In this document: positions 32,406 to 64,000 of the stretch, piece by piece
How positions within the stretch are numbered: position 1 is the stretch's first letter
Layout: each line of letters opens with the position of its first letter
Assembly (NCBI GenBank): GCA_036925085.1
Contig: JAUPFP010000003.1
Span: 1,364,001 to 1,428,000, forward strand
DNA: 64,000 bases
Source of the DNA: Brachycybe producta
Taxonomy: Eukaryota; Arthropoda; Diplopoda; Playtdesmida; Andrognathidae
Direction of reading: 5' to 3'
Program-made: the position numbers and the translations under genes
The notes under the pieces: model-generated
The model's input: only the letters and a program-made list of their open reading frames with translations
What the model was told of the DNA's origin: nothing
Database searches by the model: none

Positions 32406-32692
32406 CGGTGTCAATTAATACTTAAGACATTCCGAAAACACTCCAAAGTGTATTTTTTTAAAAAAATTCAATAAATAAGAATTATCAATAGTATATAAAT
32501 ATCAGTATAAACAAATTAGTACCATTTGTAACAAATGGTTACAAATTATTAAGACAAACATTAGTAAAAAAAAAATAACTTTTAAGAAAAACCATGGATA
32601 CAATTTTGTAATAAACATCCGAAATAAATTTGTGACAAAGTTTCCGCACTTTTCTCTCAAACTTTGAAACGGTTTAAGTTTCACGTAAAATA

Positions 32693-34582
32693 ATGGAATT
32701 CACAAGAAAGAATTCCAAAAACCATGAAATAAATTTCATGAAAATGTTAACGCCATTGTTTTTTACGATGCCTTTACGAGGAATTCCGTTAACTGACGAC
32801 GGAAATTCCTCCAGAATTTATAAATATTACAGTATTTTCATGAAAATATTCCTGTTGTTTCTACATGTGTTTATGGTTCTGTTGGGAATTAAATTAATAT
32901 TTTCTACCCTTGACAACCAGATGATAATTAGCACAGTACAAATAACGGTAACAGTGACACAAACGGTTCAATTGGGAATTCTAGATTTGATTTTTATCCT
33001 GAAACAGGACATTCTTTTCTCGACGGTTCGTGCAGCCAACAAAATGAACTTGATGATCCTGAATCAAAAAACTTTAAGGAAATTTCAAACAATTGTTCGA
33101 TGCATAATTTGTTATTGCATTTCAGGTTCAGTCTACACGGTTATAAAAGGAATCGCGATGACAGATCGCGAAAAACTCAAAGCAAAATATGCACTGGAAT
33201 ATCACGATCCAGATATCTGTTTTGCAAACGGAAAATATTGCACAAAATTCACTCACCTACTACAAATATTAGAACATTGGTTTTTTTTTACTAATCCCAT
33301 CCAATTTTTTTCTTACGGTCAACTTCTCACTGTATTGTTACTGTTTAAAATTACTTTTACGGAACTTCGTAAGCAATTTGATTGTAAAAAATCTACTCAA
33401 GAATTACTTCTGTTTTTGAAACATCTTCAAGTGTCGACCGAAGCTGTGAACAAATTCAATACACTTAATCGATTCTTAATAAGCACAGTGTGTTTTGCAT
33501 TCTTATTCTACATTGTGTTCTGCATACGAGCAATGGACGTTTTCGCACAAAAAATAAATTACGATCTCGTTAAATTCTGCACTGCAGTAAGCATGCTATA
33601 TACGACTCTAAGCCTATGTACCATATTGTCAATGGCAAACGTAAACAAAACGGTAAGTCCATGGGCCCACACAGTTTCAATAGGTTTTCGGGAGAGGTTC
33701 CCAGTTACAGCCCAGTTTTAGAGGTTCTGGAGGCCTCCCAGTTTCGAAAGGCTCCAGGAAAGCCTCCCAGTTTCGAAAGGCTCCCAGGAGCTCCTCAGTT
33801 TGGAGAGGCTCCCGGCTATGCTAGATGCATGATTTCACCTTTGAATTCTAGCCTCTCCCCAGGTTTTGTAACTGAAAAACGCAATTTTTCGTTTACTTAT
33901 GAATTTCTATTTAAAAAAAATGTTTGGGGGGGGGGGGCGCACTGAAGATTTTTGCTCCCGGGCGCCAAAAACCTAGCTACGCCACTGCTCAACACCAATT
34001 AAATAATGTCAATATTCTGAAAAGAACACGAAGAAGGTTTCTGTAAGTATAACTAGATCGGAAAACTTTACCGCAATTCCAAACAACGTTTCTCGTTACC
34101 GAATTTGTACCAGAATATCTCTAATTATTATTATTAATAACTAATTTTATTTAAATTAAAATGTTTCTAGATACTGGACTCGATAATACATACGATAGGT
34201 GTTCAAAACGTAAGAGGAAAACAGATGGAAAAAGCTTCATATAAAGTACGATATAATATTTGCAATAATTTCAGCATGTTATTGCAAAACTTAAATTATT
34301 CCGCTTTTTGTTTTTATTTTTCTGCAAAGGTTAATGAACAATTGTTGGTCTACGTGGAAAACGTATCGATTGATCCACCTCAATTGAAACTAATGGTTGT
34401 CGGAGCCGTGAGTACGGAACTCATATTTACGGTAATTTAATGGAATTTATACGGATCTGTATTTATATTATCTGTATATATTATCTGTAATTTATATGGA
34501 TCCGTAATATAAAATCGGAAATTTTGTTTTTCAGGCTGCTTTGACTGTTCTGTCTTATGTCACTGTTGTGTATGGACTTTAA
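32693..34582 (+). CDS. Gustatory-receptor-like chemoreceptor, three exons, 422 aa
   Basis: Predicted exons are 32693-33652, 34171-34431 and 34535-34582, all joined in phase 0. Donors are ACG|GTAAGT and ACG|GTAATT; acceptors are TTTCTAG and TTTTTCAG. The 422-aa product is multi-pass: hydrophobic segments include FLLFLHVFMVLLGIKLIF near residues 54-71, a Thr/Val-rich second segment, LLTVLLLFKITF near 210, FLISTVCFAFLFYIVF near 262-277, and a last segment split by the final intron. It ends AALTVLSYVTVVYGL*, where insect gustatory receptors carry the TYhhhhhQF motif. Length, a phase-0 intron before the short last exon and the hydrophobic pattern all fit that family. These proteins are ligand-gated channels of sensory neurons; the ligand cannot be inferred. 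The Gln-Phe of the motif is not conserved. Reading through the first donor gives a spurious 342-aa frame. The first intron carries a decayed transposon. Confidence 0.75.
33660..34000. mobile_element. Decayed transposon inside the chemoreceptor intron 1
   Basis: A GC-richer patch in an AT-rich intron. It has repeated CCCAGTTTCGAAAGGCTCC words (33738-33790), a G run at 33926-33937, and the terminal-like complement of CAGTGGCGTAGCTAGG at about 33972-33988. CAGTGGCG ends are common on hAT-type elements. The left boundary is not clear. Confidence 0.5.
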
Positions 34583-36905: not shown

Positions 36906-37165
36906 ATCTTAAATACGGTTTCCATCCAAATTTATATAACAAATTCCACTTAAAAAACAACATTTTCAGTATTGTTTCAAAATGACTCGAAGGTCTTAAA
37001 CCAGATTTAAGGTTCTTTTTATGTTTTCTTCTAACCTTCAAGGTCTAAAATATATTTTTCACACACATTTTTCTTTCTAATTTTCACCTTAACCTTTCAA
37101 CATTAAAAAAAAAGAAATTCCCCCAAAAAAACGCTTCAAAAGAAAATAAAAAATGCGTTTCGTAC

Positions 37166-38122
37166 CTGGACCACGTTCTGCTGTCCACTCAAAGTGACCG
37201 TACTGACCCTACGACTCGTAGGTAGCTCCCTTTCACTCAACGTAATCGACACTGGAGACGATGGACATGTTCCACTGGACTCACCCATTTGTCTTAATGT
37301 TTCAACTGATAGAAAATTACCATTCTGACGACCACTTCCTCGTCCGCCTCCTCCTTCTGAACCTTGATCGTTAGAGGCTAAACCATTAAAAACTAAAGAG
37401 TTACAAGGAGAAACTGTTCGGTTATTAGAAGAAATTAACCGTGACGTCGTTGGTGTTAGAACCGTGCTCGATCTATTGCTTCGAGGGGTGGAAAGATCGT
37501 AATGATCTCGTGCAATCGACGACGAAGAACCGCCGCAATAACTATGACAGTAACCTTGAGAAGATGATGGATTTACGATAAAACGATGATATCCACCATC
37601 GTAATCTGAATCATCCATCATGCCGTAATTACTAGAATACGGTGGTGCCCAACTGTGCCGTTTATTAGAATGTTCGATGTAGCACGGTTCACCGTCACGA
37701 TTAAACAAAGTACGAGAATTCGTAACATCGATTCCAGATGTGGAATCGACATCACGAAGATTTTGATGGAACGAACTTTCGATAAACTTCGAAGAATCGT
37801 CGTTAAAACTCGAACTACGGTTCATTTCGCTCTTTAAGTCGACAAAACTACGAACTCTTCGTAAGCCAGTCGTTGTATCATCGGCAGTTACCATCATCCG
37901 AGGTCCATCATGGTCTCGAGGAGAAGGATCTTCGTAAACTTGATTACAATTTGTAGTTTGTACAGGAGGAGGTGATGGCCACTGGTCAGTAACATCATTT
38001 TGGTCAGCATTGATAGATGGAATGATTTTCAGTTGAGGATGAGGAAGAGGAGGAGGAGGAGGCAAAGGTGGTGATGAAACGCAGCCGTTTCTATTTTCTG
38101 ATGAGATTTTTTCGTCCATCAT
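37166..38122 (-). CDS. Ser/Pro-rich N-terminal coding exon of an unrecognised gene
   Basis: One long exon of 319 codons. It opens ATG-ATG at 38122 after an in-frame upstream TGA and ends in phase 0 at CAG|GTACG (intron starts at 37165). The product starts MMDEKISSENRNGC, has a proline run (about residues 19-28), Ser-rich stretches (about 104-116 and 186-204), a TDQWPSPPPV block, a Gly-rich patch near 257-266 and a basic RRVST (a PKA-type site in form) near 304-308. No globular domain is visible, so it is probably the disordered cytoplasmic N-terminus of a larger signalling, scaffold or channel protein. The next exon would be to the left. The phase-0 exon at 22802-23143 on the same strand may be a second first exon of the same gene. 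Codon use is much less AT-biased than the surrounding DNA, supporting real coding. Family not recognised. Confidence 0.65.
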
Positions 38123-38693
38123 TTTTCGTAAAAATTTCAGAACTTTTTCTCGAGAAGATAATTTCTCTTCCTTTCGTAGTCAGAAATCGCAAAAGAAATA
38201 AAACCGTTGATTAGATTTTTTCGAAGTTGTTTTCCAACGACGATGATTTCCGAACAAACATATTGACGACAACAAAGTCTTTCAATCTTGATTTAGGTCC
38301 ATCACAACACAAATTCGATAATTCCATGGATTAAAAAATCTTTCAAAAATCCATCCCTGTATAAAATAAGATTTAAATATCTAAGAAATTAGGCAATAAC
38401 ACATGTATTTACAGTATGCTTCAAAAACATATTTCCAATATACAACTGAAATTAAATTCAAAAATTTTTTTTTAGAAGCAAATTCAATTTTTAATAAAAA
38501 ATTTTTTAGAAAAAATTTCGATTTTTTTAAAATCAAAATTCGATATTTTACAAAATCAGCTTCAAAAATATTGAAAAATTCGTTATCTTTTTATACTTTC
38601 TGCTAAATAAATTTCAATTTTTACTAAAAAGTTGTTTCTAAAAAGTTTCAAACTAAAATTCAGTAAAAATTGAAACTGAAATTTTTATATAAG
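38123..38693. other. 5' flank of the Ser/Pro-rich exon
   Basis: Probable 5' UTR and promoter for the minus-strand exon in the first couple of hundred bases, becoming A/T-rich beyond about 38340. No defined promoter motif seen. Confidence 0.4.
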
Positions 38694-49534: not shown

Positions 49535-49540
49535 TTTATT
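49535..49540 (-). promoter_or_regulatory. Candidate polyadenylation signal of Nup54
   Basis: AATAAA on the minus strand, 169 bp beyond the Nup54 stop codon. Confidence 0.5.
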
Positions 49541-49708: not shown

Positions 49709-52700
49709 TCATTTCCTTTGCCGAGATTCGCCGCTTAAACCGCCTTCGATTATCTTAAGACATTCGAGATCTTCTCGTACGACGGCAACTAAATGAGAAA
49801 TTCCTTCTTGCTGAACTCGTAAATGCTTAAAACAACAAGAAAACCAAATAAAAAAATTAGTAAAAAAAACCAGAGCTTGAAACTCACAGATTTAGTCGAT
49901 TACGGTTACCTGTTTTAATTCCGTCTGTAAAGCGGGATCGATGGCGTACCTTTCGATCGTATGGGCCAACATGTGCTCCCTTTGAAGGCGTATTTGTGAC
50001 ATCAGTTCGTTCAAACGACCCTGAAACGAATTCTCTTATTAAGATGGGTTTAGAGCTGAATTTTTCCAAAATTCTTTTATTATTTCTGCCTTTCAGATGA
50101 GCAAAATTAAGAAAAACTAGAAAGTGTTTTTTTAGAAACTAGAAAAGGGTAGCTCAATCACTTAAGTGGGTATTTTCATGTTTGATATGTTTCAAAATAA
50201 ACGTTTTATAGACAAAAATTAATAAAAAAAAATATCACAAAAAGCTTATTTTGAAAGATATCAAACATGAAAATACCTTTAAATGTGATTGAGCTACATT
50301 TCTAGTATTTAAAACACTTTCTGCCATTCATGGGCAAAATTAAAAGAAACTAGAGTGTTTTAAAAACTAGAAAGGTAGCTCAATCACATCTAAAGGTATT
50401 TTCATGTTGTCATCTTTCAAAATAAACTTTTTCATGTCGGTTTGAAAATGAACTGAATTTAAGTAGCTGATATTTTTTTAAATCTTTGTCTTTAAAAAGC
50501 TTATTTTGAAAGATATCGACATGAAAACACTAGAAAATGGTTAAACTACCTTTCTAGTTTTTAACACACTTTCTGCCATTCATGAGCAAAATTAAAAGAA
50601 ACTACAAACTGTTTTAAAAACTAGAAGGATCGCTCAATCACTTAATAGTATTTTCATGTTGATATCTTTTAAAATAAGCTTTTTATTTTACTTTGAAAAT
50701 GACTCAACCTTAAATAGAGAATAATTTTAAATTTACGTCTATCAAAAGTTTATTTTGAAAGATTTCGACATGAAAATAACATTAAATGTTTCAGTTACCC
50801 CTTCTAGTTTCTAAAACACTTTCTAGTTTCTCTTCATTTTGCACCTGAAAGGCAGATATAATCAAGAGTCCGAGAAGCTTTTCCACTTTTAAAACTAATT
50901 AAAGAAGCACATTGTCCAAAATTGAAAAATACAAAACAGAAAAACGATGAATGTTCTCGGTTACCTTTGCCTGGTTCGGAGCACTGAGCTCATTGTTGAT
51001 GGCTTCCAATTGAACTCGAAGCTGTTCTTCGTCAGCCTGTATTGCAAGGCCCAGTTTACGACCGATTTCTTGTCGTACCATCACCTAAAAACGTAGAGAA
51101 CAAACACTTTCGGTCAGTTTCGCCTTTGAAACACAAACGGAAGAAAGAAACCAACGACTTCACCTTTAATATACGTCGAGACAGTTCCAAATGTCTACGT
51201 TTCTGTTCGCTTATTTTGGCCACCGTGTTCGAATGATTATGTTGTAGATTATTGATCTCGCCGATGATCACCTGAAACGAACATGAAACAAACCCTCAAA
51301 ATCGTCGCTTTTTGATGATTTCAAAACCATCTTACATTCAACCGGCCCTGATGCACTTTGGTTTCTTCATCTTGACACTTGAGTCGTCTTTGAAGTTCGG
51401 CAAAACCGACCATCGGAACCGGAATCAAACGTTCCGGATCAGGATTATCGAGCCGGGCTTGTTGCCACAAGAGCGGATCGATTCCGGATGGTGGATTATC
51501 CATGTAATATGATAACTGTTCTGCCGTCGGTGCGGCTTTCGGAACAACGGTTTCAATTCCTAAAGTAGCCATTTGCTGACGGACGTTCGCTTGGCTAAAG
51601 TACGTAAAAACTTCCGAAGTCGGAATACGGCGTGAAACTCCCGTATGAGATCTCTCCAGTATGTAGATCGTTACTTCGGACCTGCGTTCGTATTTATGAT
51701 AAAACTATTTGTTATTCAGTGTTTTAGAAACAATAACAACAATTTTGACCGAACAAACAAAAAACAAGATTTCATTTAAAAAACAACTCACTTGTTGTCC
51801 AATGCGGGTTTCACTCCTTCGACGCAGGCCAATAACGTCGGCCGACTTCCCAACAGCCTCTGAAGTCCTTCGACCAACTGATGCTGTTGAGCTCGTACTT
51901 CAACGTCCTTCCTATTGATGATCAACGATACGAAACCATCTTCGTTCTTTGAAGTTGGTAAACAGCTGTATCCGACAGCCTAAAAAAAGCAAGAAAGAAA
52001 AATTGTACCGAAAAAGCGCCACCAATCATCTTCTCTTCTTACTTTGAACTTGCAGAATGGATTATTCGGTGTGAATTCGATCGGTGGCGCACTGATCGAA
52101 TAGAAGCCTTTGCCAGTACCCCAAAATGCTTGTAACTGATTCCATTTAGCAACGATCGTGTCGCGTTCGTCGCCGTACAACACGGGACAACATAAAGCGG
52201 CCGTTAAATTCGATAAACTCGCATCTGCCGAGAATGGAGAAACGCCGATCGCAGAAGGAGCTATGAATAAAATATAAGCTATTTACATCTGTCGCTCCAA
52301 AAAAAAAACCTCGGAAATTTATTATGCCCGATCCACATCAATACAAAACCACAACAAATTTGTAACAAAACATAAATGGTCCGAATCCATCCCAACAGTG
52401 CTACCCATTCCAATAAGAATCATAGATTTCGCACTGTCCCATGAATCACCCTGTATGTCCCGTCCCACCCGGGTCCCATGAGATCCACTCATATTAACCG
52501 ATCCCGCCCATCCTTCATCAGTTCCACCCGTTCCCTTCAATCTCCATTCCAGTACGTTTACCTGGTCCTAATGTTGTCATTCCGACCATCGGCTTTCCGA
52601 ACATTCCCGATCCACTCTGATTCGCTCCTAAAGTGGTTCCGATTCCTTTAAAAACAAACACAAAAAAAAACCTTTAAGTAAAGAAATAACTTAAGTTTCG

Positions 52701-55700
52701 AGCGACTCTTACCCGTGGTCAATCCACCTCCGAAATTGAATCCGGACGAGGCCGGAGCGGAAGTCGTCGTTCCAAATCCACCGAATCCAAATCCAGTTCC
52801 AGGAGCTCCGATACCAGAAGCGCTTGTGGTGGTCGTCGTACCAAAACCGGTTCCTAGTCCGAATCCGGACGTGGCCGTCGTCGGTGTCGTTCCGAAACCA
52901 CCGAACTGAAATCCGGTAGACGCTGCCGTTGCAGCTACTTTAGCAGCAGGAAGACCGAAGTCGGCGAAACCACCCATTCCACCAGACGATGTGGTTGTCG
53001 TCGTAGCCGGGTTAGTACCGAATCCTCCGAACCCCGTACTACCTCCACCAAAGTTAAAACCAGACGCTGCCGTTGTGGCCGAAGGCTGAGTTCCGAATCC
53101 ACCCAAAGTTAAACCACCTTTCAGTTAAGAAAACAAACAGAAGAAATTCAGAATTATCTAAGATAAAATCTAGCTTCCGGTTTCTAAGAGCAATTTTCAA
53201 GAATTTATTGAAAGTTTATTAGAAACTAGAAGGGTAATTGAATCACATAACGATATATTTTCACGTTGACATCTTACAAAATAAACTTTTTATAAAAAAA
53301 AGCTTATTTTGAAAGATATCAAACATGAAAACAACCTTAAATGATTGACCTACCTGTAACCTTTCTAGTTTTTAACACTCTCTGCCATTTATTTATGAGC
53401 AAAATTAAGAGTAACTTGAAAGTATTTTAGAAACTAGAAGTATAGCTCAATTTAAGGTTATTTTCAAGTTCACTATCTTTTAAAATAAGCTTTTTATGGT
53501 TAGTTTGAAAATGACCCAACGATTTTTACAGAAAAATAACTTCTACTTGAAGTTGGGCCCATTTTGAAACTTACATAAAAAGCTTATTTTAAAAGATAGT
53601 GAACTTGAAAATACTCTTTAAATGATTGAGATACCCTTCTAGTTTCTAAAACACATTCAAGTTTCTCTTTAATTTGCACTTAAAAGACAGAAATAATCAC
53701 GAGTTCGAGAGACCCCGTTTACACTTTAAAACCCCATTAATAGGGCTCGGATTTTAATGAAAAATCAAGCAAAATGTTTCTCAATTTGTGGCCCCCTAAG
53801 AGCCAATTTTGAAGTATCAATCTTATTATGGTTTTTTTAAATCAAAAAGGCTGGTTAGAGACTAGAATTGTCTAGTTGACAGTTGATAGCAACCGGACAT
53901 CTAGCCTCTAACCAGCCTTTTTGATTAGAAAAAAGCATAATTGTAGTTGCTCTAATGATGAAGAATGATTACTTCACAATTGGCTCTTATGGGGGCCACA
54001 AATTGAGAAACATTTTGCTTGATTTTTTCATAAAAATCCGAGCCCTATTGCTTTTTCTTGAAGCTAAAACACCAAATTTAATCAATAATTATAATTGTCA
54101 CTCATGTAATATTGAAGAACTGACAACAAGAAAACCCATTTGAAATATTTGTTGAAGTTTCGATTGAACGGGAAGTTCTTCGGAAAAAAGAACCCATTTT
54201 TATTTCCAAAAGGAGGAGATTACGTAACTCGGAAACAAACGACATCCTAGGTGATTTTTCATTTTGTTTCTCTGTTTCTCCACAAAGGAAATACCAACAA
54301 AAAAGGCAGATTTTACTCGCAAGGAAACAACTCTCAGGAAGTTAAAAAGACGTCATTCGAGAAGTAGAAAAACCAAATGATTCAGGAAACCAAAAGACTA
54401 GAAATAAACTTAAAAAAACCCAAGACTTCTCGAACAAAGATAAAACAATATTCTCCTAGTTACTCGGTAACCGAAACGACATTCAAATATCGTAACGAAT
54501 AAACATCGCTCGGTGTTTTTACTTTCAATCGGCCGAAGAAAATGAGACGAATCGAAGGATAAAACTGAAAATATCGTAAATTTTGTAAGTAGAATTCACA
54601 AACAAACAACGAAAAAGCTTACAACCTTTTGAAATCCGGTTAATTCTGTCTTACAGAAGAGCCAAATGAATGTGTTTTAGAAACTAGAAGGGTAGACCAT
54701 TCGCTTAAAAGTGGATATCTTTCAAAATAAGCTTTTTATCTGTCCCTTCTAGTTTCTAAAACACTAATTTCTCCCCTTAGAACTCTATTTGTATTCTGTA
54801 TGTCGAGTTTGTAAATTAAGAAGGACTTGAAAGTACTTTAAAAACTAGAAAGGTAGCTCAATCATTTAAGTATATATTTTCATACCTGATATCTTTCAAA
54901 ATAAACTTTTGACGTGAGTTTGAAAATTGACCTTAATTTAAGCAAATGATGTTTTTTAATTTCTGTTTGTAAAAAGTTTATTTTGAAAGATATCCAAACA
55001 TGAAAAATATTTTAAGAGATTCAGCTACCATTTCTAGTTTTTAAAACACTTTCAACTTTCCCACTTTCAGTATAACTGTGTTGTACTTCTGAAAACGCAA
55101 ACTTTTCCAACGGAAATGAATGTGAAAATGCATTTTCGAGACATGTTCACAGTGAAAACTGAAACACTTTTTTACTTTTACTTGAAATTAGGTAAAAATG
55201 GAACGAATAACATCATCAAACTTATTCGTTATCCTCGTCATCGGCGCCGTAATCTTGCGACACGGATACGCCGCCACGTGTCAGAGTGGTTGCACGTGCA
55301 CGGACACGACCTCGACACTGACGTGTATCGGAATCCCCGATTCCATTTCGAAGACGACAAACAACCTCACAGTGATTGGAAAGTCGTTGTTCGAATTCGA
55401 AACGAAATCGGTTGCTTCGTTTGTCGAATTACGAACTCTCGTATTGAACGATCTCGAGATATCGTCGATAAAACACGAAACGACTATCGATTCGATCCGT
55501 CTCGATCAACTTCATTCGCTGTCGCTACGCAACAACGACATTGTCCAACTAGCGACAGGCATTTTCTCGTGGTGTCCGAACGTCGAAGAACTGAGACTTT
55601 CATCGAATAAAATCAAAAACATTCATAAAGATGTTTTTGTTTCTCTGAAGTTTCTCAAGACGTTAGATCTTGCGAATAACAATCTTCAGACAAACGATTT

Positions 55701-57803
55701 CGATATACCGATATCTATCGAAGTTCTCGATTTGACCAACAATCAAATTTACGAATTGCAAAATGCCGTAATGCCGAAACTTCACGAACTTCGTCTTTGC
55801 GGAAATCACTTCATAAATCCATCATCTCTCGACAAATTTGACATTCCTAAAGTGAATTCGCTCTGTATCGGAGATACGATAACTTCGATCGATTCATTTA
55901 CGTTTACGAAAACGCCAGATATAACCAGCCTAGAACTCGTCGGAAAAACTCTTCTCGATGTTAAGTTAATGGACGAAATCAAAATTTTAGATCAACTTCA
56001 AGTTCTGACGTTATCTTTCTTTCATTACGGAGCTTTAACGTCGGAAGTGTTTCGAGGATTCGACCGATTAATCGAACTACATCTCGATAACATCGATACC
56101 GAAACTATCGAACACGATGCTTTCGAACCGCTTAAGAATCTACGGCTTTTAGACCTTCACGGAAGTACGAAGCTCGTTGCAAGTATTCTAGCGAAAGAAA
56201 ACCTCGCGATACTCGAAACCGTTAAAAAATTATCGTTATCAGAAACAAAACTGACTACGATCGATCCGAAGACAGTTTTAAGATTCGTACCGAACCTAAT
56301 CAACTTGGATATCAGTTCGAATCCGATCGAATGTGACGATAACATGAGAAAATTGGTCAGAACGGTTCTACGAAGCGAACTTTCGATGCTCAACGTCGAG
56401 AATACAAAATGCGAAAGTCCGAAGTCACTTCGAGGTAAAGAAGTATTCGAAGATTCATCTGTAATCAAAATACTTCGAGGAGAAAATCGTCAGAATGTAA
56501 CTTCGGAAACAACGAACACAAAAGGAACGATAAATTTGATCTTAAAAGCTTTAGGATTCACTTCAGAGCATCTTTTTTATATCGTTATCGGTCTTTTGTT
56601 GTTAGTTTTCATTCTGACGGCCTTAGTCATTGTATTTCATAGCAAACTAACGGTGAAAACGCGTCGTCGCAAATACAATACGAGAAGAGACGGATCAACA
56701 GAGAGTTTTGTGAGAGCAAATAACGAATACACTTTCGATAATTTCACTCTGTCTGAAACTCTAGCCGAATGTCGGCGACCTCCGTGTCCGAAATAACTTG
56801 TATTCAACATATCCGAACTAAAACGGAAGCTGAACCATAATTTCTATTCGATGCTACGAAGAATTCGTGAGAAAATAAGTGAGAAAAAAAAATGCGGTTG
56901 TGAAAATTTAAATTGTAAATTTGTAATAAAAACTTTCTATAAAATCGATTTGTTTCATTTTTAAGTAAGATTTCGACTTGAGAGATCAGAATTCGTCAGA
57001 AACGAAAGAAATTTAAAGAATTACATGAGCAATAGAACACAACGATCAGAATTCGTCGTAAAATAACCAGACATTCAAATGATCAGAATTGGTGTAAAGT
57101 TAACCAGAAATAGCCAACAAAATGATCCGAATTCTTCAAAACGTTAAGAATTGGTCAACAGGTAATCAGAAACGTTCATCAAAATGATCCGAATTCCTTA
57201 AAATGCCAAAAAAATGAAACGTCGAAACTGTCAGAATCAGTCAAACCAATCAGAAATGGTCAAAGGAAACCAGAATGGGCACCAAAATGATCAGAATTCG
57301 TCAGAACAATGAGAATTAGTCAAAATAAACCTTAAATGGCCAACAAAATGATGAGAATTCCTTAAAATGACTGGAGATAAGACAGCGAAACGGTCAGAAT
57401 CCATTCAAACCAATCAGAAATGGTGAAAATTAACCATCAAAATGATCAGAATTCACGAAAATGAAGACAACGGAACTTCAAAACAACGAAAATTCGTCAG
57501 CAACACGAAGAGAACGTGCAAAGCCAACCTAAAAACCTAAAAAGAATGACTAAATAAAGGTTAATTCCATGAAAAACGGTGTAATTTTTAAGTCAACTTT
57601 CCCGCCACTTCTTTTCCCGATGGAATCAAGACTAAAAAGATCGGAAAACGGCCCCATTGGGAACCACACGACCCACCCACCTTCGACCGTCACTTACAGA
57701 CTAACAAATATGAATCAATTTGTCATTACAGGTGTTTATTTTTACCTGTTTGTTGTGATGTTGCTTGACCGAAAGTACTCGTTGGCAACCCAAACGACGC
57801 CAT
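49709..57803 (-). CDS. Nup54: Nucleoporin Nup54, ten exons, 584 aa
   Basis: Nup54 is part of the Nup62-Nup58-Nup54 channel complex of the nuclear pore, and its FG repeats form the transport barrier. Coding exons in transcript order: 57746-57803, 52713-53117, 52562-52645, 52043-52260, 51792-51979, 51336-51681, 51164-51271, 50965-51084, 49910-50020 and 49709-49825. All junctions are GT-AG and every phase agrees, giving 1,755 nt. Exon 1 encodes MASFGLPTSTFGQATSQQT, and residues 20 to about 180 are Gly/Phe/Thr-rich FG repeats. The conserved Nup54 domain follows, with LYGDERD (about 210-216) and WNQLQAFWGTGKG. After it come coiled-coil segments (KISEQKRRHLELSRRI; ADEEQLRVQLEAINNEL) and the C-terminal HLRVQQEGISHLV helix. 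The length is between the vertebrate (507 aa) and fly (about 610 aa) proteins. Introns are mostly 63-110 bp; introns 3 (301 bp, G-rich on the coding strand) and 8 (944 bp, three family A elements) are longer. Intron 1 is 4.6 kb and encloses another gene. Exon 1 was found from phase and FG content only. Confidence 0.93.
50080..50900. mobile_element. Chain of three family A elements in Nup54 intron 8
   Basis: Outer ends are TTATTTCTGCCTTTCAGATG and CTGAAAGGCAGATATAATCA. The internal joints at about 50315 and 50570 both read CACTTTCTGCCATTCATG. The inner arms TTGATATCTTT/AAAGATATC are present in all three. The chain fills most of the 944-bp intron. Confidence 0.87.
53170..53730. mobile_element. 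Two fused family A elements in Nup54 intron 1
   Basis: Left arm AGAAACTAGAAGGGTAATTG; the joint near 53385 is CTCTCTGCCATTTATTTATG, a variant of the recurrent joint word. The right end is AAAAGACAGAAATAATCACG then CCCGTTTACACTTTAAAACC. Confidence 0.83.
53741..54047. mobile_element. Family B MITE in Nup54 intron 1
   Basis: TAGGGCTCGGATTTTAATG to AAAAATCCGAGCCCTA. The inner inverted words are well preserved (TTGATTAGAAAAAAGC and complement), suggesting a young copy, although no clean flank duplication is seen. Confidence 0.88.
54048..54634. other. Nup54 intron 1, no element recognised
   Basis: Purine-rich on the plus strand (GGAAACAACTCTCAGGAAG and similar). No coding signal supported. Confidence 0.45.
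54635..55095. mobile_element. Two family A elements just upstream of the LRR gene
   Basis: A copy with its centre deleted (about 54640-54790) and a fuller copy (about 54800-55095). The second ends within about 100 bp of the LRR start codon, so its right arm lies where the promoter or 5' UTR should be. Confidence 0.82.
55198..56796 (+). CDS. Leucine-rich-repeat type I membrane protein, intronless, 532 aa
   Basis: A single open frame with the layout of a cell-surface LRR receptor or adhesion protein. Residues 1-26 form a signal peptide (hydrophobic NLFVILVIGAVIL). An LRRNT-type cysteine cluster follows (C28, C32, C34, C43), then about 13 leucine-rich repeats from roughly 77 to 377, for example LRTLVLNDLEISS, VEELRLSSNKIKNI and LKTLDLANNNLQ. 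The LRRCT-like cap has NPIECD (C379) and C405. A stalk leads to a transmembrane helix near 459-480 and a 52-residue cytoplasmic tail starting with basic TRRRK. No TIR, kinase or immunoglobulin domain is present, so it is not a Toll receptor. Ligand and pathway are unknown. The gene lies within intron 1 of Nup54, on the opposite strand. AATAAA follows at 56925. The frame is intact and its codons are richer in C and G than the flanks, so it appears to be under selection. An intronless gene could be an old retrocopy. Confidence 0.9.
   Translation: MERITSSNLFVILVIGAVILRHGYAATCQSGCTCTDTTSTLTCIGIPDSISKTTNNLTVIGKSLFEFETKSVASFVELRTLVLNDLEISSIKHETTIDSIRLDQLHSLSLRNNDIVQLATGIFSWCPNVEELRLSSNKIKNIHKDVFVSLKFLKTLDLANNNLQTNDFDIPISIEVLDLTNNQIYELQNAVMPKLHELRLCGNHFINPSSLDKFDIPKVNSLCIGDTITSIDSFTFTKTPDITSLELVGKTLLDVKLMDEIKILDQLQVLTLSFFHYGALTSEVFRGFDRLIELHLDNIDTETIEHDAFEPLKNLRLLDLHGSTKLVASILAKENLAILETVKKLSLSETKLTTIDPKTVLRFVPNLINLDISSNPIECDDNMRKLVRTVLRSELSMLNVENTKCESPKSLRGKEVFEDSSVIKILRGENRQNVTSETTNTKGTINLILKALGFTSEHLFYIVIGLLLLVFILTALVIVFHSKLTVKTRRRKYNTRRDGSTESFVRANNEYTFDNFTLSETLAECRRPPCPK
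56925..56930 (+). promoter_or_regulatory. Candidate polyadenylation signal of the LRR gene
   Basis: AATAAA 128 bp after the LRR gene stop codon, followed by T-rich sequence (TTTGTTTCATTTTT) about 20 bp on. Confidence 0.65.
56980..57510. repeat. GATCAGAATTCGTC minisatellite in Nup54 intron 1
   Basis: At least eight degenerate units of about 50-60 bp containing AAATGATCAGAATTCGTC and ACCAGAAATGGTCAAC words, between the LRR 3' end and Nup54 exon 1. Noncoding on both strands. Confidence 0.83.
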
Positions 57804-57850
57804 TTTTTTTTACTTCCGACACCTACAACAACAATGATGACGTCATCAAT
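57804..57850 (-). promoter_or_regulatory. Nup54 proximal promoter with CRE palindrome and ETS site
   Basis: GATGACGTCATC, a perfect 12-bp palindrome containing the CREB/ATF consensus TGACGTCA, lies at 57836-57847, about 33 bp upstream of the Nup54 start codon. CGGAAGT (an ETS-type core on the minus strand) lies at 57812-57818. No TATA box is evident, as is usual for housekeeping genes. The transcription start is not known, so either motif could be in the 5' UTR. Confidence 0.5.
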
Positions 57851-57956
57851 TATGCGAAATAACAACGAAAATCGATGACCTCATAAAAAGTTGTTACATA
57901 TTTAGTCACTAGATGGCAATAGCATCTATGGAAAGCTGAAATAACTAGACATCATT

Positions 57957-58475
57957 AAAATGTATTAATTTTTAAGTTAATTAAAATTTACTAATTTTTT
58001 AAGTAAATTAAAATTCATTAATTTTTAAGTTAATTAAAATTTATTAATTTTTTAAGTAAATTAAAATTTATTAATTTTTTAGTTAATTAAAATTTATTTT
58101 TTAAGTTAATTAAGATTTACTAATTTTTTAAGTAAATTAAAATTTATTAATTTTTAAGTAAATTAAAATTTAATAATTTTTTAAGTTAATTAAAATCTAT
58201 TAATTTTTAAGTAAATTAAAATTCATTAATTTTTTAAGTTAATTAAAATTTATTATTTTTAAGTTAATTAAAATTTATTAATTTTTTAAGTTAATTAAAA
58301 TATATTAATTTTTTAAGTTAATTAAAATTTACTGATTTTTTTAAGTAAATTAAAATTTATTAATTTTTTTAATTAATTTTAATTTATTAATTTTTTAAGT
58401 AAATTAAAATTTATTATTTTTTTTAAGTTAATTTTAATTTATTAATTTTTAAGTAAATTAAAATTTATTTTTTTA
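57957..58475. repeat. About 27-bp AT-rich tandem array upstream of Nup54
   Basis: About 19 units of TTAATTTTTTAAGTTAATTA plus AAATTTA, varying in T-run length and in TTAA versus AAAT. It begins about 150 bp upstream of the Nup54 start codon. Confidence 0.92.
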
Positions 58476-58684
58476 AAATAAAATTCGTACAGTCTAAACG
58501 TTACGTTTAGGCCCGACCTCAGAAAGTTCAAGTGACAAATTTCCTTCTTGAATTTTGACCTTATTATATTCGTGGGAGGGAGAAAAAATAATCCAATTTT
58601 TTTCTGATAATATTATGACTAAAAAATGAAGTGTAACTTTGAAGTCATTTGACTCATTTAATCTTATGCAATAATAATAAGCAG

Positions 58685-58950
58685 GGGCTCGGATTTTTAT
58701 GCCAAATCAAGTAAATGTTTCTCAATCGGTGGCCCAAGAGCCAAATTGTGAAGCAGCCATTCTTCATCATTAGAACAACTGCAATCATGCTTTTTCTAAT
58801 AAAAAAAGGATGGTTAGAGGCTAGATGTCTTGTTGTTATCAATCGTCGACTTGAGTTCTAGCCTCTAACCAGTGTGCCATTATTTTTCTTCACAAATGGC
58901 TCTTGGGTCACAGATTGAGAAACTTTTGCTGAATATTGGCATAAAAAAAC
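58685..58950. mobile_element. Family B MITE with decayed right end
   Basis: GGGGCTCGGATTTTTATGCC at the left, GGTTAGAGGCTAGATG and TTCTAGCCTCTAACCAG in the middle. The right end has lost the CCGAGCCC part. CAATAATAAG occurs on both sides (near 58670 and 58950) and may be a target duplication. Confidence 0.78.
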
Positions 58951-59424
58951 CAATAATAAGTTACACCTCAAATAAATTGAACTAAATTGTAGTATTTTTG
59001 TCACACTTTTCAAATGATACATTAAAATTTTATCTTTCATATATTTTTCTCCTATCAGTGAAATATTATGCGTAACTTTATAAGAATTTCATAGGTTTTT
59101 ATTAGCAAAAAAAAATTGATAACATTTTGTGTTTTCCTATTTATGATTGGATAACAATGGAAATATAAATGGGTGTATTATTTTTTTACTGATAATTGCC
59201 ATAACATTTTTTTAATCAAATATTGAATTTAATCACAAAAAATAAATGTATTTTTGTGTCTTTGTTTCATATTTAAAATAAGAACATTTTTTCATAGTTT
59301 GCGATTGAAAATAGTGAGAAAACAACGTAATATTTTATGTTTTATAATTTGAAAAAAAAATTTATAATTTAGTTTAAAAAAATAATATTTTGTGAATTTG
59401 GTTTTAAAATAAACCCACTTCAAA
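58951..59424. other. 5' flank of mesh
   Basis: AT-rich sequence that should contain the mesh promoter and 5' UTR. I see no confident core promoter motif. Confidence 0.4.
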
Positions 59425-62400
59425 ATGGCGCCAAATTCCATTTGGATGATGGTGGTGGCCATTGTGATTTTTATGGGACTTTCATGTTTAGGACAGAATT
59501 CTCCAATTCGACGAAACATACAAAATGGTAGAAAATCGTTTATTTTGAAACATTGTTTTCATTTTTGAAATTTGTAATAATTTTGTATTTTTGTTTTGCT
59601 TTATAATGTCATATTTATTATTATCTTGAAAGAAACTCTGCAATTTTAATGGGGTTTCTTTATAAACTAGAAGAGTAACTGAATCACTACAAAATGTTTT
59701 ACAGTTCTTATCTTTAAAAATAAACTTTTTTCTGAAACTGAAGTAAAAAAATTGAAAATCGTGAATTTCTAATTGTCATAAAAAGTTTATTTTTAAAGAT
59801 ATTCACTTGAAAATCTACTCAAGTGATTCAATAACTCTTCTAGTTTCTAAAACACTTTCAATTTTTTTCTTCCTGTTGCCTTCTGAAACGCAGAAATAAC
59901 TAGATTTTTCTGTTTCCATTGTTCTTTTTACATATTTTGATGTAAATATAACAAAATTATATTAATATTAACTATATATTTCAAATTAAAAACTTCCATA
60001 AATATTAAATATTATTAAAATATAAAAGATGGCTGCCAGTTTTAGGAGTAATTTCAGGGCGTGGCAAGATTAAACCGTTATAAATAATAAGCTTATCAAT
60101 TTTGTAATTTATCTTCAAGGAAACTACAAAGTAACTGTAACTTTAAAGGACTTTAAAATTAAATAATATATTAAATTGCAACAGAATTATTTCTTTAAAA
60201 GTTGTTTTAACATTTTAAATTTTAAACGCCTCTCAGGTGCAAAATGAAGAGAAACTTGAAAGTGTTTTTTTTAGAAACTAGAAGGGTAGCTCAATCACTT
60301 AAGCGTGTTTTTCATATTGAAATCTTTCAAAATAAACTTTTTATGACAGATTTAAAACGCCTCAACTTGAAGCAGACGATATTTTTAAATTTTTGGATTA
60401 TAAAAAGTTTATTTTGAAAGATATCAACATGAAAATACTCTTTAAGTGATTGGTTTACCCCTCTAGTTTTGTAAAACAATTTCTAGTTTCTCTTAATTTT
60501 GCTCTTCTGAAATTGACAGAATAATCAAGAGTTTTAAAATCCGCTGTTCATAAACCACCTTAAGTTACTCCCCCTCGAAAAAGTAAAATAGTAACTTAAA
60601 AAAAGTAACTGTAACTTGAAGTACTTATTTAAAATTAAATTCCTATTTTAACTCGAACCATTTTTCTTTCAAATTTCTTTTAAGTTACTCCTCGTAAGTA
60701 ACTGTAACTTGGTGCGTTAATATTAATTTGTTAATATTAATTAAATAGAATTATTTCATTAAAAATGTATTTAATTTAAGTTACTCTTAAAAAGTAACTG
60801 TAACTTGAAACAATTATTTTAAAGAACAATTCCTGTCGTAATATTAAATTGTGATTAGAAAATTATTTATATAAAATTTGTTTTACTCTTCGAAAGTGAA
60901 AGAGTAACTTCAGAAAAGTAACTGTAACTGTACTTATTTAAAGTTGAAATTTCTTTATAAGTTACTCCTCGAAAAAAACTGCAATTTGAAAAAAAGTAAC
61001 TGTAACTTGAAACAATTATTTTAAAGTACAATTCCTTGCGTAATATTACGCAAGGTTAAAACAAATTTTATATGAAATAATTCTAATTACAATTTAATAT
61101 TAAATTTAATCTGTTTCTTTTTAAAAGTGAAAAGAGTAAAATTTCAGAAAAGTAACTGTAACTTAAAAAAGTACTTGTTAGTTTATATTACAAAATAGTT
61201 ACAAAATACATTATTCATTCAGACTTTTAATACAAAAAAATAAAAGATATTTATAAATATCTTTTACATTTTTGTTGCAATTTTCAATGCAATTCAATGA
61301 AATTTTCATAATCAATGAAAAATTTCGTAAAAAATAAAAAGGAAGTTGTTCAAAATACAAAGTCCAAAAATAAAAATGATATTGACTCATGATGTCAAAA
61401 GAGAAGAAAAGAATTGTTTTATCAAAATAACAATAAAGATTACATACATTGTTACCTTAACAACAACAAACAAGTTACTAACTTATCAAATGAATATTAC
61501 TCAGAAGAAAATCCTTATTTGAAGAAGTTGAATATTATTATTAGGGATGGGCCATTCGAATCCTCGAATCCCGCGAATCTTGAAACAATATTCGAGATTC
61601 GAAAACTCGAATCTTCGCGATTTTTTCGTCTTTTCGAATTTTGAAAAATATTCGAAATTCTAAAACTCGAATCTTCGCGCTTTTTTCGTCTTTTCGAATC
61701 TTTCGAATCCGGCAAATCTTTAAAAACATTCGAGATTCGAAAACTCGAATCTTCGCCGCTTTTTTCGTCTTTTCGAATCTTTCGAATCCTAACCTTAAAA
61801 AAATCTGTTGAAGCTTTCACTAACAAAAAAAAAACGGCGATTGTTGTAATTTCGGTTGGTATCCGGATCACCAATGGATCACCTTGTGGCCTGACCCTGA
61901 GTGCCGCCACATTGTGTTTTTTATTATTTAATATTTAATATTATTTCATTTATTTGGATTTTCTTAATGAATAATATAGGATTCTTATATGAAGGATTCG
62001 TGAGATTCGAAAACTCGAATCTTCGAAGCTTTTTTCGTCTTTTTCGAATCCTAACCTTAAAAAAATCTGTTAAAACTTTGGTAAAATTAGTTTTAACTCC
62101 ACTGAAGTCCAATAGAAGCGATCACTAACAAAAAAAAACCGGCGATTGTTGTAATTTCGGTGGTATCCGGATCACCAATATCACCTTGTGGTGATATTGT
62201 GCTGCCACACTGTGTTTTTTATTATTAATAATTTAATATTTAATATTATTTCATTTATTTGTATCTTCTTAATGAATAATAATATAGGATTTTCTTATAT
62301 GAAGGATTCGAGAGATTCGAAGGATTCGAGAACCTTTTAGGATTCGTCCCACCTCTAACTATTATATTAGGGACTCGGCAATACCAAGCAACTGTTTCTC

Positions 62401-64000
62401 AATCTGTGGCCCCAAGTGCTAATTGTAAAATAATGATCATCCTCATTACTGCAACTAACAATTATCCTTTTTCTGATACAAAAAAAATGGCTGTTTTGAG
62501 GCTAATGTCTGGTTATCTAGCCTCTAACCAGTGTTTTTGATTAATAAAACACTTAATTGTTGGTTTGATTTCTAAACGGGATTTTCACTTCACAATTGGC
62601 TCGTGGGCCACTGATTGAGAAACATCTGCATAAAAATTCCGGTCTAAAATTATTAAAATTGGAAACAAAAAACTACAAAAAGTTCGAACTTTGGTTCTTC
62701 TGTCTTTCAGAAGAGCAAAATTAAGAGAGAAAAAAAACTAGAAAGTGATTTAGTAACTAGAAACTCAATCACTTAATACTATTTTTATGTTGATATCGTT
62801 CAAAATAAACTTTTTATAAACAAAAAATCAAAAAAAAAAATATCGCTTGCTTTAAAATTCGGTCATTTTCAACTTCACATAAAAAGCTTATTTTGAAAAA
62901 TATCAACATAAAAATAGGCTTAAATGGCTGAGCTGCCCCTTCTAGTTTCTAAAATTCACTCTTATTCGTTCTGGCTTTATTTTTTTAAAAAATTACGCCC
63001 ATTCGTCTGTATTTCTCTCTGGAAGTAAATTCCATGGTCTAAAACGCCATTTTGAATTTTAATTAATTTTTCTACAAGCAACTCAGATAGAGCCTATGGC
63101 AGAGGGACAATTTATTCCAACAACATAATTTACTTATGTATAAAATTAATATATTCCAGTCGTTGATAAAAATGCTCCAGTACAAGAAAACATTCGAAGG
63201 ATCCGAGACAGTCTCATGTATCCTTACGAACAGTTCACAGTAACGAACATCGCAGATATGATCGTATTAGTACAGTACAATCTTAGGTTTCCGTTACCAT
63301 TCTACGGATTTTACTTCAATTACACATGGGTAAACATAGAAACTTTTTTTTAAAGTAATACTTAAGTAAATGAAAAGTCCAGTAACTTTTGACTTTTTAA
63401 CTTCAAGGTTTCGTTACATGGACACATAGCTTTCAGTCAGTCACCTGCCAGTACTTTACGGCCGTTGAAACTACCAGTAGACGACTGGCCCAGTAAACCA
63501 GATCCATCTTTCATTGGTCCTTTCCATATGGAAGCCGCAATTGGAGAAAAAGTGGATTCTGCGGATTTAGATCCCGGTGTTTACGTTAGGTACGAATAAT
63601 TCTACAACATTACGGGTCATTTATTAACGGTACAATTTTCAATAGAATTATTCCAGACATTGGAAGTGCCAGTGGTAATGTAAAACCTCCTGATTGGGAT
63701 CCGGATCAAATCCGTAACGAAGAAGCTGCCATCAAAGAGGCACTGACCGAAGATATTCAAGCTGGAATAATCGGAGCCGAATACTTCACACCGAAACACG
63801 TCATCATAATAACTTGGAGGAATGTTACGTTCAACGGTGGATCCGCTGGAACTAAAAAGATTGTCAGTCTTACAGAAAATTCCGATAACCGAAAAGCTGT
63901 AAACTTCATTTTTAACCCGTTTTTGTTCGTTTCAGACAAACACTTTTCAAACGGTGATTGCGACAGATGAAATTCTGACCTACTGTATGTTTAATTACGA
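59425..64000 (+). CDS. mesh: mesh, 5' part (septate-junction protein), partial
   Basis: Mesh is a transmembrane component of smooth septate junctions in arthropod gut, with NIDO, AMOP, vWD and Sushi domains. Predicted exons: 59425-59527, 63160-63329, 63408-63589, 63646-63862, and 63936 to beyond the window. Exon 1 encodes a start Met and signal peptide (MAPNSIWMMVVAIVIFMG, then SCLGQ). Its phase-1 donor G|GTAGAA fits the phase of the 63160 exon, giving a continuous product. Downstream exons encode the region leading into the NIDO domain: PLPFYGFYFNYTW, HGHIAFSQSPA, FIGPFHMEAAIGEKVD and ITWRNVTFNGG, then TFQTVIATDE. I assigned mesh from this order of motifs. The exon 4 donor is the unusual ATT|GTCAGT; the alternative GCT|GTAAAC would leave a 37-bp intron, which is too short. 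Intron 1 is 3.6 kb and full of transposons. All later domains lie outside the window. Confidence 0.82.
59640..59905. mobile_element. Family A element in mesh intron 1
   Basis: TTTATAAACTAGAAGAGTAAC and CTTATCTTTAAAAATAAAC at the left; AAAGTTTATTTTTAAAGATA and AACTCTTCTAGTTTCTAAAA at the right, ending CTTCTGAAACGCAGAAATAA. Confidence 0.82.
60230..60570. mobile_element. Family A element, near full length, in mesh intron 1
   Basis: Starts AAACGCCTCTCAGGTGCAAA with the left arm AGAAACTAGAAGGGTAGCTC. The right outer arm is TTCTGAAATTGACAGAATAA and the alternative end is CCGCTGTTCATAAACC then ACCTTAAG. That CCACCTTAAG end matches the terminus of family E. Confidence 0.86.
60571..61170. repeat. AAGTAACTGTAACTTGAA repeats and a long inverted repeat
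   Basis: AAAGTAACTGTAACTTGAA recurs about eight times at irregular spacing. The segment near 60838-60887 (TAATATTAAATTGTGATTAG...) returns inverted near 61055-61105. A perfect 22-bp palindrome with half-site CCTTGCGTAAT sits at 61033-61054, where the two copies meet. Confidence 0.78.
61542..62357. mobile_element. Family F hAT-like element, long form, in mesh intron 1
   Basis: TAGGGATGGGCCATTCGAAT to GATTCGTCCCACCTCTA. Flanks are ATTATTAT (61534-61541) and ACTATTAT (62358-62365), 7 of 8 identical. It is twice as long as the copy at 25.0 kb because the subterminal TTCGAATC block is multiplied and the middle (GTATCCGGATCACCAAT) is duplicated. The 131-codon minus frame inside is read-through of these repeats, not a transposase. 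Confidence 0.87.
62368..62646. mobile_element. Family B MITE in mesh intron 1
   Basis: TAGGGACTCGGCAATACC to AAAAATTCCGGTCTA. It lies only 10 bp after the family F element and is more diverged than other family B copies. Confidence 0.83.
62685..62960. mobile_element. Family A element in mesh intron 1
   Basis: GAACTTTGGTTCTTCTGTC and TTTCAGAAGAGCAAAATTAA at the left, AACTAGAAACTCAATCACTT as left inner arm. The right inner arm is GCCCCTTCTAGTTTCTAAAA; the outer right arm is missing. It ends about 200 bp before mesh exon 2. Confidence 0.82.

Follow-up and report, generated by a model that had tools for sequence, protein, structure and literature searches.

Several LRR genes are known to lie within other genes, among them OMG in NF1, FLRT3 in MACROD2 and LRRN3 in IMMP2L. 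An arrangement of the same kind is that of 2mit, which encodes a putative LRR transmembrane receptor and is found antisense in an intron of timeless2 (PMC3786989). According to that study, 21 Drosophila species and the honey bee share the nest and four Lepidoptera lack it, and no functional link between 2mit and its host was found by the authors (PMC3786989). Antisense nested genes are common, and the same study puts the intronic share of Drosophila genes at about 6% (PMC3786989). A second set comes from jawed vertebrates, where LRRTM1, LRRTM2 and LRRTM3 lie antisense in introns of the alpha-catenin genes CTNNA2, CTNNA1 and CTNNA3, respectively (PMC3933685). The paper that describes them has LRRTMs as reported from vertebrates only, names LRRC4 as another vertebrate nested LRR gene, and counts 19 conserved nested structures that were lost in frog or chicken, in 12 of which the inner gene encodes a protein of the LRR superfamily (PMC3933685). 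With regard to expression, a further paper recounts that nested pairs did not differ in their correlations from other genes of the chromosome in early microarray work, and that later RNA-seq in Drosophila found nested pairs to be more divergent, which was taken as interference (PMC8467205).

The locus considered here lies within a 64-kb window, the term window being used for the whole stretch of DNA that was analysed, and consists of an LRR membrane-protein gene that appears to sit antisense within the first intron of the pore gene Nup54. LRRC4, OMG, FLRT3 and LRRN3 are similar to it in that they too are LRR membrane-protein genes within the introns of unrelated hosts. In the 2mit/timeless2 pair of Drosophila and Apis, too, an unrelated gene harbours a putative LRR receptor gene antisense in one of its introns, but the host is timeless2 rather than Nup54, and 2MIT is credited with 1141 amino acids, 16 repeats and two exons, whereas the protein here is 532 amino acids long, ends in a short tail and is encoded by a single exon (PMC3786989). 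The LRRTM/CTNNA nests likewise combine a conserved host with an intronic LRR transmembrane gene on the opposite strand, and differ in host family, in lineage and in the size of the intron, put at about 50–450 kb in human (PMC3933685).

In the open-licence papers that were searched, no LRR gene was found in Nup54, and as far as these searches go the two genes are new as a pair and ordinary as a kind. The first-pass annotation of this DNA had treated as something special the presence of a probable surface-receptor gene within a host of broad expression. Since LRR genes recur amongst nested genes, this contrast is itself a recurrent one, and the claim falls away against the antisense-nested LRR genes of vertebrates and 2mit in timeless2 (PMC3933685, PMC3786989).

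The Nup54 host gene and its first exon

Nup54 runs along the minus strand from 57803 to 49709 and has 10 exons which, once joined, give 584 codons and a stop in a frame without any inner stop, with GT-AG boundaries at all nine introns. The gene is presumably broadly expressed, and its product matches the Pfam families Nup54 (PF13874, 2.3e-46) and Nup54_C, the C-terminal interacting domain (PF18437, 2.6e-13). The top solved chain for the product is 5ijn_F of the Protein Data Bank (E 6.9e-159), which covers residues 73–577. The putative exon 1 (57746–57803, 58 nt) comprises MASFGLPTSTFGQATSQQT plus one base, with a donor that reads CAG/GTAAAA, and is followed by intron 1 (53118–57745; 4,628 nt, phase 1) and an FG-rich exon 2 (52713–53117). 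The joined reading frame continues through exons 3–6 (52645–52562, 52260–52043, 51979–51792 and 51681–51336) and exons 7–10 (51271–51164, 51084–50965, 50020–49910 and 49825–49709), the last of which holds the stop, and on the same strand there is an AATAAA 3' of the stop with its first base at 49540. The eight introns other than intron 1 measure 63, 64, 67, 79, 84, 110, 301 and 944 nt.

Exon 1 stands outside the region of homology, as the best solved chain begins at residue 73. The open frame of exon 2 starts at 53124, two codons 5' of the acceptor, with no Met ahead of the acceptor, and the first in-frame Met within the exon is residue 67. Because this frame has no earlier Met, Nup54 requires an upstream coding exon unless translation starts at Met-67 itself. 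A scan from 53118 to 60000 for all ATGs whose reading frame stays open as far as a GT of matching phase gave 95 combinations in all, 76 of them with five or more codons. Donors with at least six of the nine consensus places are present in six of these 76, and the exon at 57803 alone scores 7/9, the best value; it is also the only one of the six to contain FG dipeptides, of which it has two. Two FG are likewise present in two combinations that start at 56345, on the strand opposite to the LRR frame; their donors score 2 and 4. A control of 425,830 strand-bases, taken from other sequence of the same genome, produced 6,549 combinations, with two or more FG in 12, a donor of 7 or more in 222 and both traits in none. 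The start context of the 57803 exon is AAAAAAAATGG. The CRE-like palindrome TGACGTCA (57838–57845, minus strand) lies just 5' of the exon, although it is weak evidence because nine copies are present in the 64-kb window.

These results bear directly on the alternative that Nup54 starts elsewhere, either inside exon 2 or in a first exon that separates it from the LRR gene, which would then be merely a neighbour. Met-67 could provide a start within exon 2, and there are five other phase-1 start exons with 6/9 donors, one of which, at 54482, falls in the interval from exon 2 to the LRR gene. However, not one of these five has an FG, whereas the exon at 57803 combines two FG and the context AAAAAAAATGG with the best donor, a combination of FG and donor that is equalled by none of the 6,549 background combinations. 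A start elsewhere is consequently regarded as very unlikely. The placement of exon 1 at 57803–57746, although inferred, is well founded, the evidence that points to this 58-nt exon consisting of its FG content, its start context and its donor. Such a placement agrees with the first-pass reading, in which 19 codons plus one base at 57746–57803 fit in phase with exon 2 at 53117 across a 4.6-kb intron: the result would be a ten-exon Nup54 of 584 amino acids, with a phase 1 intron 1 of 4,628 nt and a first exon that has the best donor among the 76 candidates.

The LRR gene, its product and its relatives

The LRR membrane-protein gene has a single, intact coding exon on the plus strand (55198–56796), with 532 codons and a stop. 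In 200 second-order Markov sequences of the length of the intron, the longest ORF reached 154 codons with the composition of the intron and 212 codons with that of the LRR ORF, and the idea of a chance ORF was rejected on comparison of these maxima with the 532 codons of the real frame. Codon preference, when correlated with that of Nup54, gives 0.67 for the true frame and 0.14–0.50 for the other five, a margin that is modest and depends on a small reference gene.

The topology predicted for the protein from its hydropathy peaks is that of a leader and one membrane helix. The probable signal peptide, at residues of about 1–26 (55198–55275), was assigned by eye and coincides with a peak in hydropathy (1.85) that starts at residue 9. 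The transmembrane helix is predicted at residues 462–480 (56581–56637), with a mean hydropathy of 3.36, and after it comes a short tail of around 50 amino acids. Seven LRR-like motifs were found in residues 105–390; an eighth pattern match, at residue 466, was dropped as it falls in the membrane helix. Pfam returned LRR_8 (1.8e-23, 82.5 bits against a cut-off of 27), with its best stretch at residues 104–163 (55507–55686), and LRR_4 (9e-19), and the solved relatives, amongst the best 60 of 188, include the LRR ectodomains of 8suf, LGR4 and TLR3. The cysteines at positions 28, 32, 34 and 43, together with those at 379 and 405, look cap-like by eye; in Pfam, LRRCT appears with an E value of 0.18, under its cut-off, and LRRNT is unlisted. 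Unlike the Toll-like receptors, which have a TIR domain, the protein has a short tail and no TIR domain amongst the 11 Pfam families that it matches at E values of up to 1.

The intact 532-codon antisense LRR membrane-protein gene put forward in the first-pass annotation is thus upheld by the LRR_8 match (1.8e-23), the membrane helix and an ORF longer than the Markov maxima. The polyadenylation signal that had been ascribed to it is also present, an AATAAA at 56925–56930, 129 bases 3' of the stop. The 5' end of the transcript is a more delicate matter, with ATGs at 55116, 55120, 55128 and 55143 preceding the start codon, the first of which opens a 164-codon ORF that overlaps the LRR frame. Because of these upstream ATGs, the transcript would start very near 55198 or have a spliced leader, and with a spliced leader the first exon could sit outside Nup54 intron 1. 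The earlier statement that the gene is wholly inside the intron therefore holds for its coding sequence and poly(A) signal and is too broad for the rest of the transcript.

In the 295-Mb assembly, 24 matches to the LRR protein are listed, one of which is the protein itself while the other 23 fall at 18 places; these totals form a lower bound, as 81 of the 112 first-look candidates were scored. The 23 others are 26–38% identical over partial stretches only, and the best relative among the matches listed is 30% identical over residues 96–376. Open frames at the 18 listed places range from 414 to 1415 codons, and those at L005 and L007, for example, have both leader-like and membrane-helix-like hydropathy peaks. 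Other frames, those at L002 and L003 for example, end within a repeat or a cap, and hence belong to intron-bearing genes. A cluster of several similar LRR frames within about 30 kb is also seen at L045–L047 (contig C83, about 283–313 kb). The Toll-like character of the LRR frames, together with a Nup54 of metazoan type, makes an invertebrate animal the probable source of the DNA.

The lack of introns in the LRR coding sequence could be taken to mean that the gene was recently retrocopied from an LRR gene at another site in the genome. However, the long frames at the 18 listed places indicate that long intron-free LRR exons are common in this genome, though some of the genes carry introns, and so a single coding exon on its own is weak evidence of retrocopying. 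Moreover, neither the best listed relative nor the partial matches to the 23 others provide a likely parent at their levels of identity, and a poly(A) tract was not seen by eye after 56930. With no close relative amongst the 81 of 112 candidates that were scored, and with 18 other places that also have long frames, a recent retrocopy was set aside as extremely improbable, although an old one could still be compatible with these observations.

A possible habit of nesting was looked for in flanks of about 10 kb around 8 of the 18 LRR places, two of the eight sharing a flank within one cluster. The flanks contain 75 listed coding stretches, 10 of which were run against Pfam with a single match, to Peptidase_M16; the left side of the same place resembles, by eye, a laminin coil and gave no Pfam match. 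The flanks of these 8 of 18 places revealed no recognisable host gene that extends across both sides, in a comparison of low power.

Repeats and other frames in the window

Dispersed repeats make up much of Nup54 intron 1 outside the LRR gene. They include a palindromic repeat element (53736–54049) with many genomic copies, the best copies listed being about 78–82% identical, a further repeated stretch at about 53397–53733, and a second dispersed repeat family (54813–55059) that ends around 140 bases 5' of the LRR start codon. For the interval 53118–55197 as a whole there are at least 162 matches in the genome. Related elements are found in Nup54 intron 8, at about 50068–50875, and RNA transcribed from either strand could fold into long hairpins across the dense palindromic repeats of introns 1 and 8 (53213–55059 and 50068–50875).

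Tandem repeats are present on both sides of Nup54 exon 1. A degenerate one with a period of 164 and 2.1 copies (57082–57428) occupies part of the interval from the LRR poly(A) signal to the exon, and a period of 62 was also called inside it, at 57085–57203. An AT-rich repeat with a period of 27 (or 53) and 19.5 copies (57954–58469) lies directly 5' of the presumed Nup54 promoter.

Three other frames in the window deserve mention. The 347-codon frame at 37139–38179 on the minus strand is proline-rich near its start and has a high coding score of 55.6, with no Pfam family above cut-off. Another of 347 codons, at 32678–33718 on the plus strand, has hydrophobic stretches and is invertebrate chemoreceptor-like by eye, with no Pfam match. 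Near the end of the window, at 63590–63967, there is a frame that matches the nidogen-like NIDO domain (E 7.5e-07; 29.8 bits, cut-off 25).

The nesting and its possible consequences

Given exon 1 as placed above, the LRR ORF (55198–56796, plus strand) falls entirely within the intron of Nup54 (57745–53118, minus strand), and at the level of sequence the nesting appears to be real. It is highly probable that Nup54 and the LRR gene form an ordinary antisense nested pair made up of two separate protein-coding genes. The LRR gene would have arrived in intron 1 at some point, and would be transcribed from its own intronic promoter at roughly 55.06–55.19 kb, giving a product that may be a type I surface receptor or an adhesion protein. 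Each Nup54 pre-mRNA would be antisense to the LRR gene, with the LRR sequence being removed along with the intron, and any interaction between the two genes would probably be limited to mild transcriptional interference.

A different reading is that the nesting is functional, with transcription of Nup54 across the LRR gene, or the reverse, setting the expression of the other gene. The geometry of the locus lends itself to this, as the two putative promoters would point towards one another across about 2.7 kb and the whole of the LRR gene would be spanned by the Nup54 pre-mRNA; these are points of geometry only. The 2mit/timeless2 nest argues against it, no functional relation having been found between the two genes (PMC3786989), and the functional reading is given the same low probability as a Nup54 start elsewhere. 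The first-pass annotation had raised the prospect that convergent transcription couples the expression of the two genes, which is conjecture. The published comparisons do not favour it, no functional relation of 2mit to its host having been found and Drosophila RNA-seq pointing to interference and divergence (PMC3786989, PMC8467205). Less probable still than a functional nest is the view that selection keeps the nesting because Nup54 transcription gates the LRR receptor, which would make the pore gene a cis-regulator across an animal lineage.

As an ordinary nested pair, the two genes have a practical consequence for gene annotation, where unstranded RNA data would blur Nup54 and the LRR gene. 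More generally, Nup54 together with an LRR receptor that has no close relative amongst the scored candidates of its genome would add a further pair to the recurrent pattern of antisense LRR nesting, and the pair would be informative as to why nesting persists only if it is conserved across a lineage.
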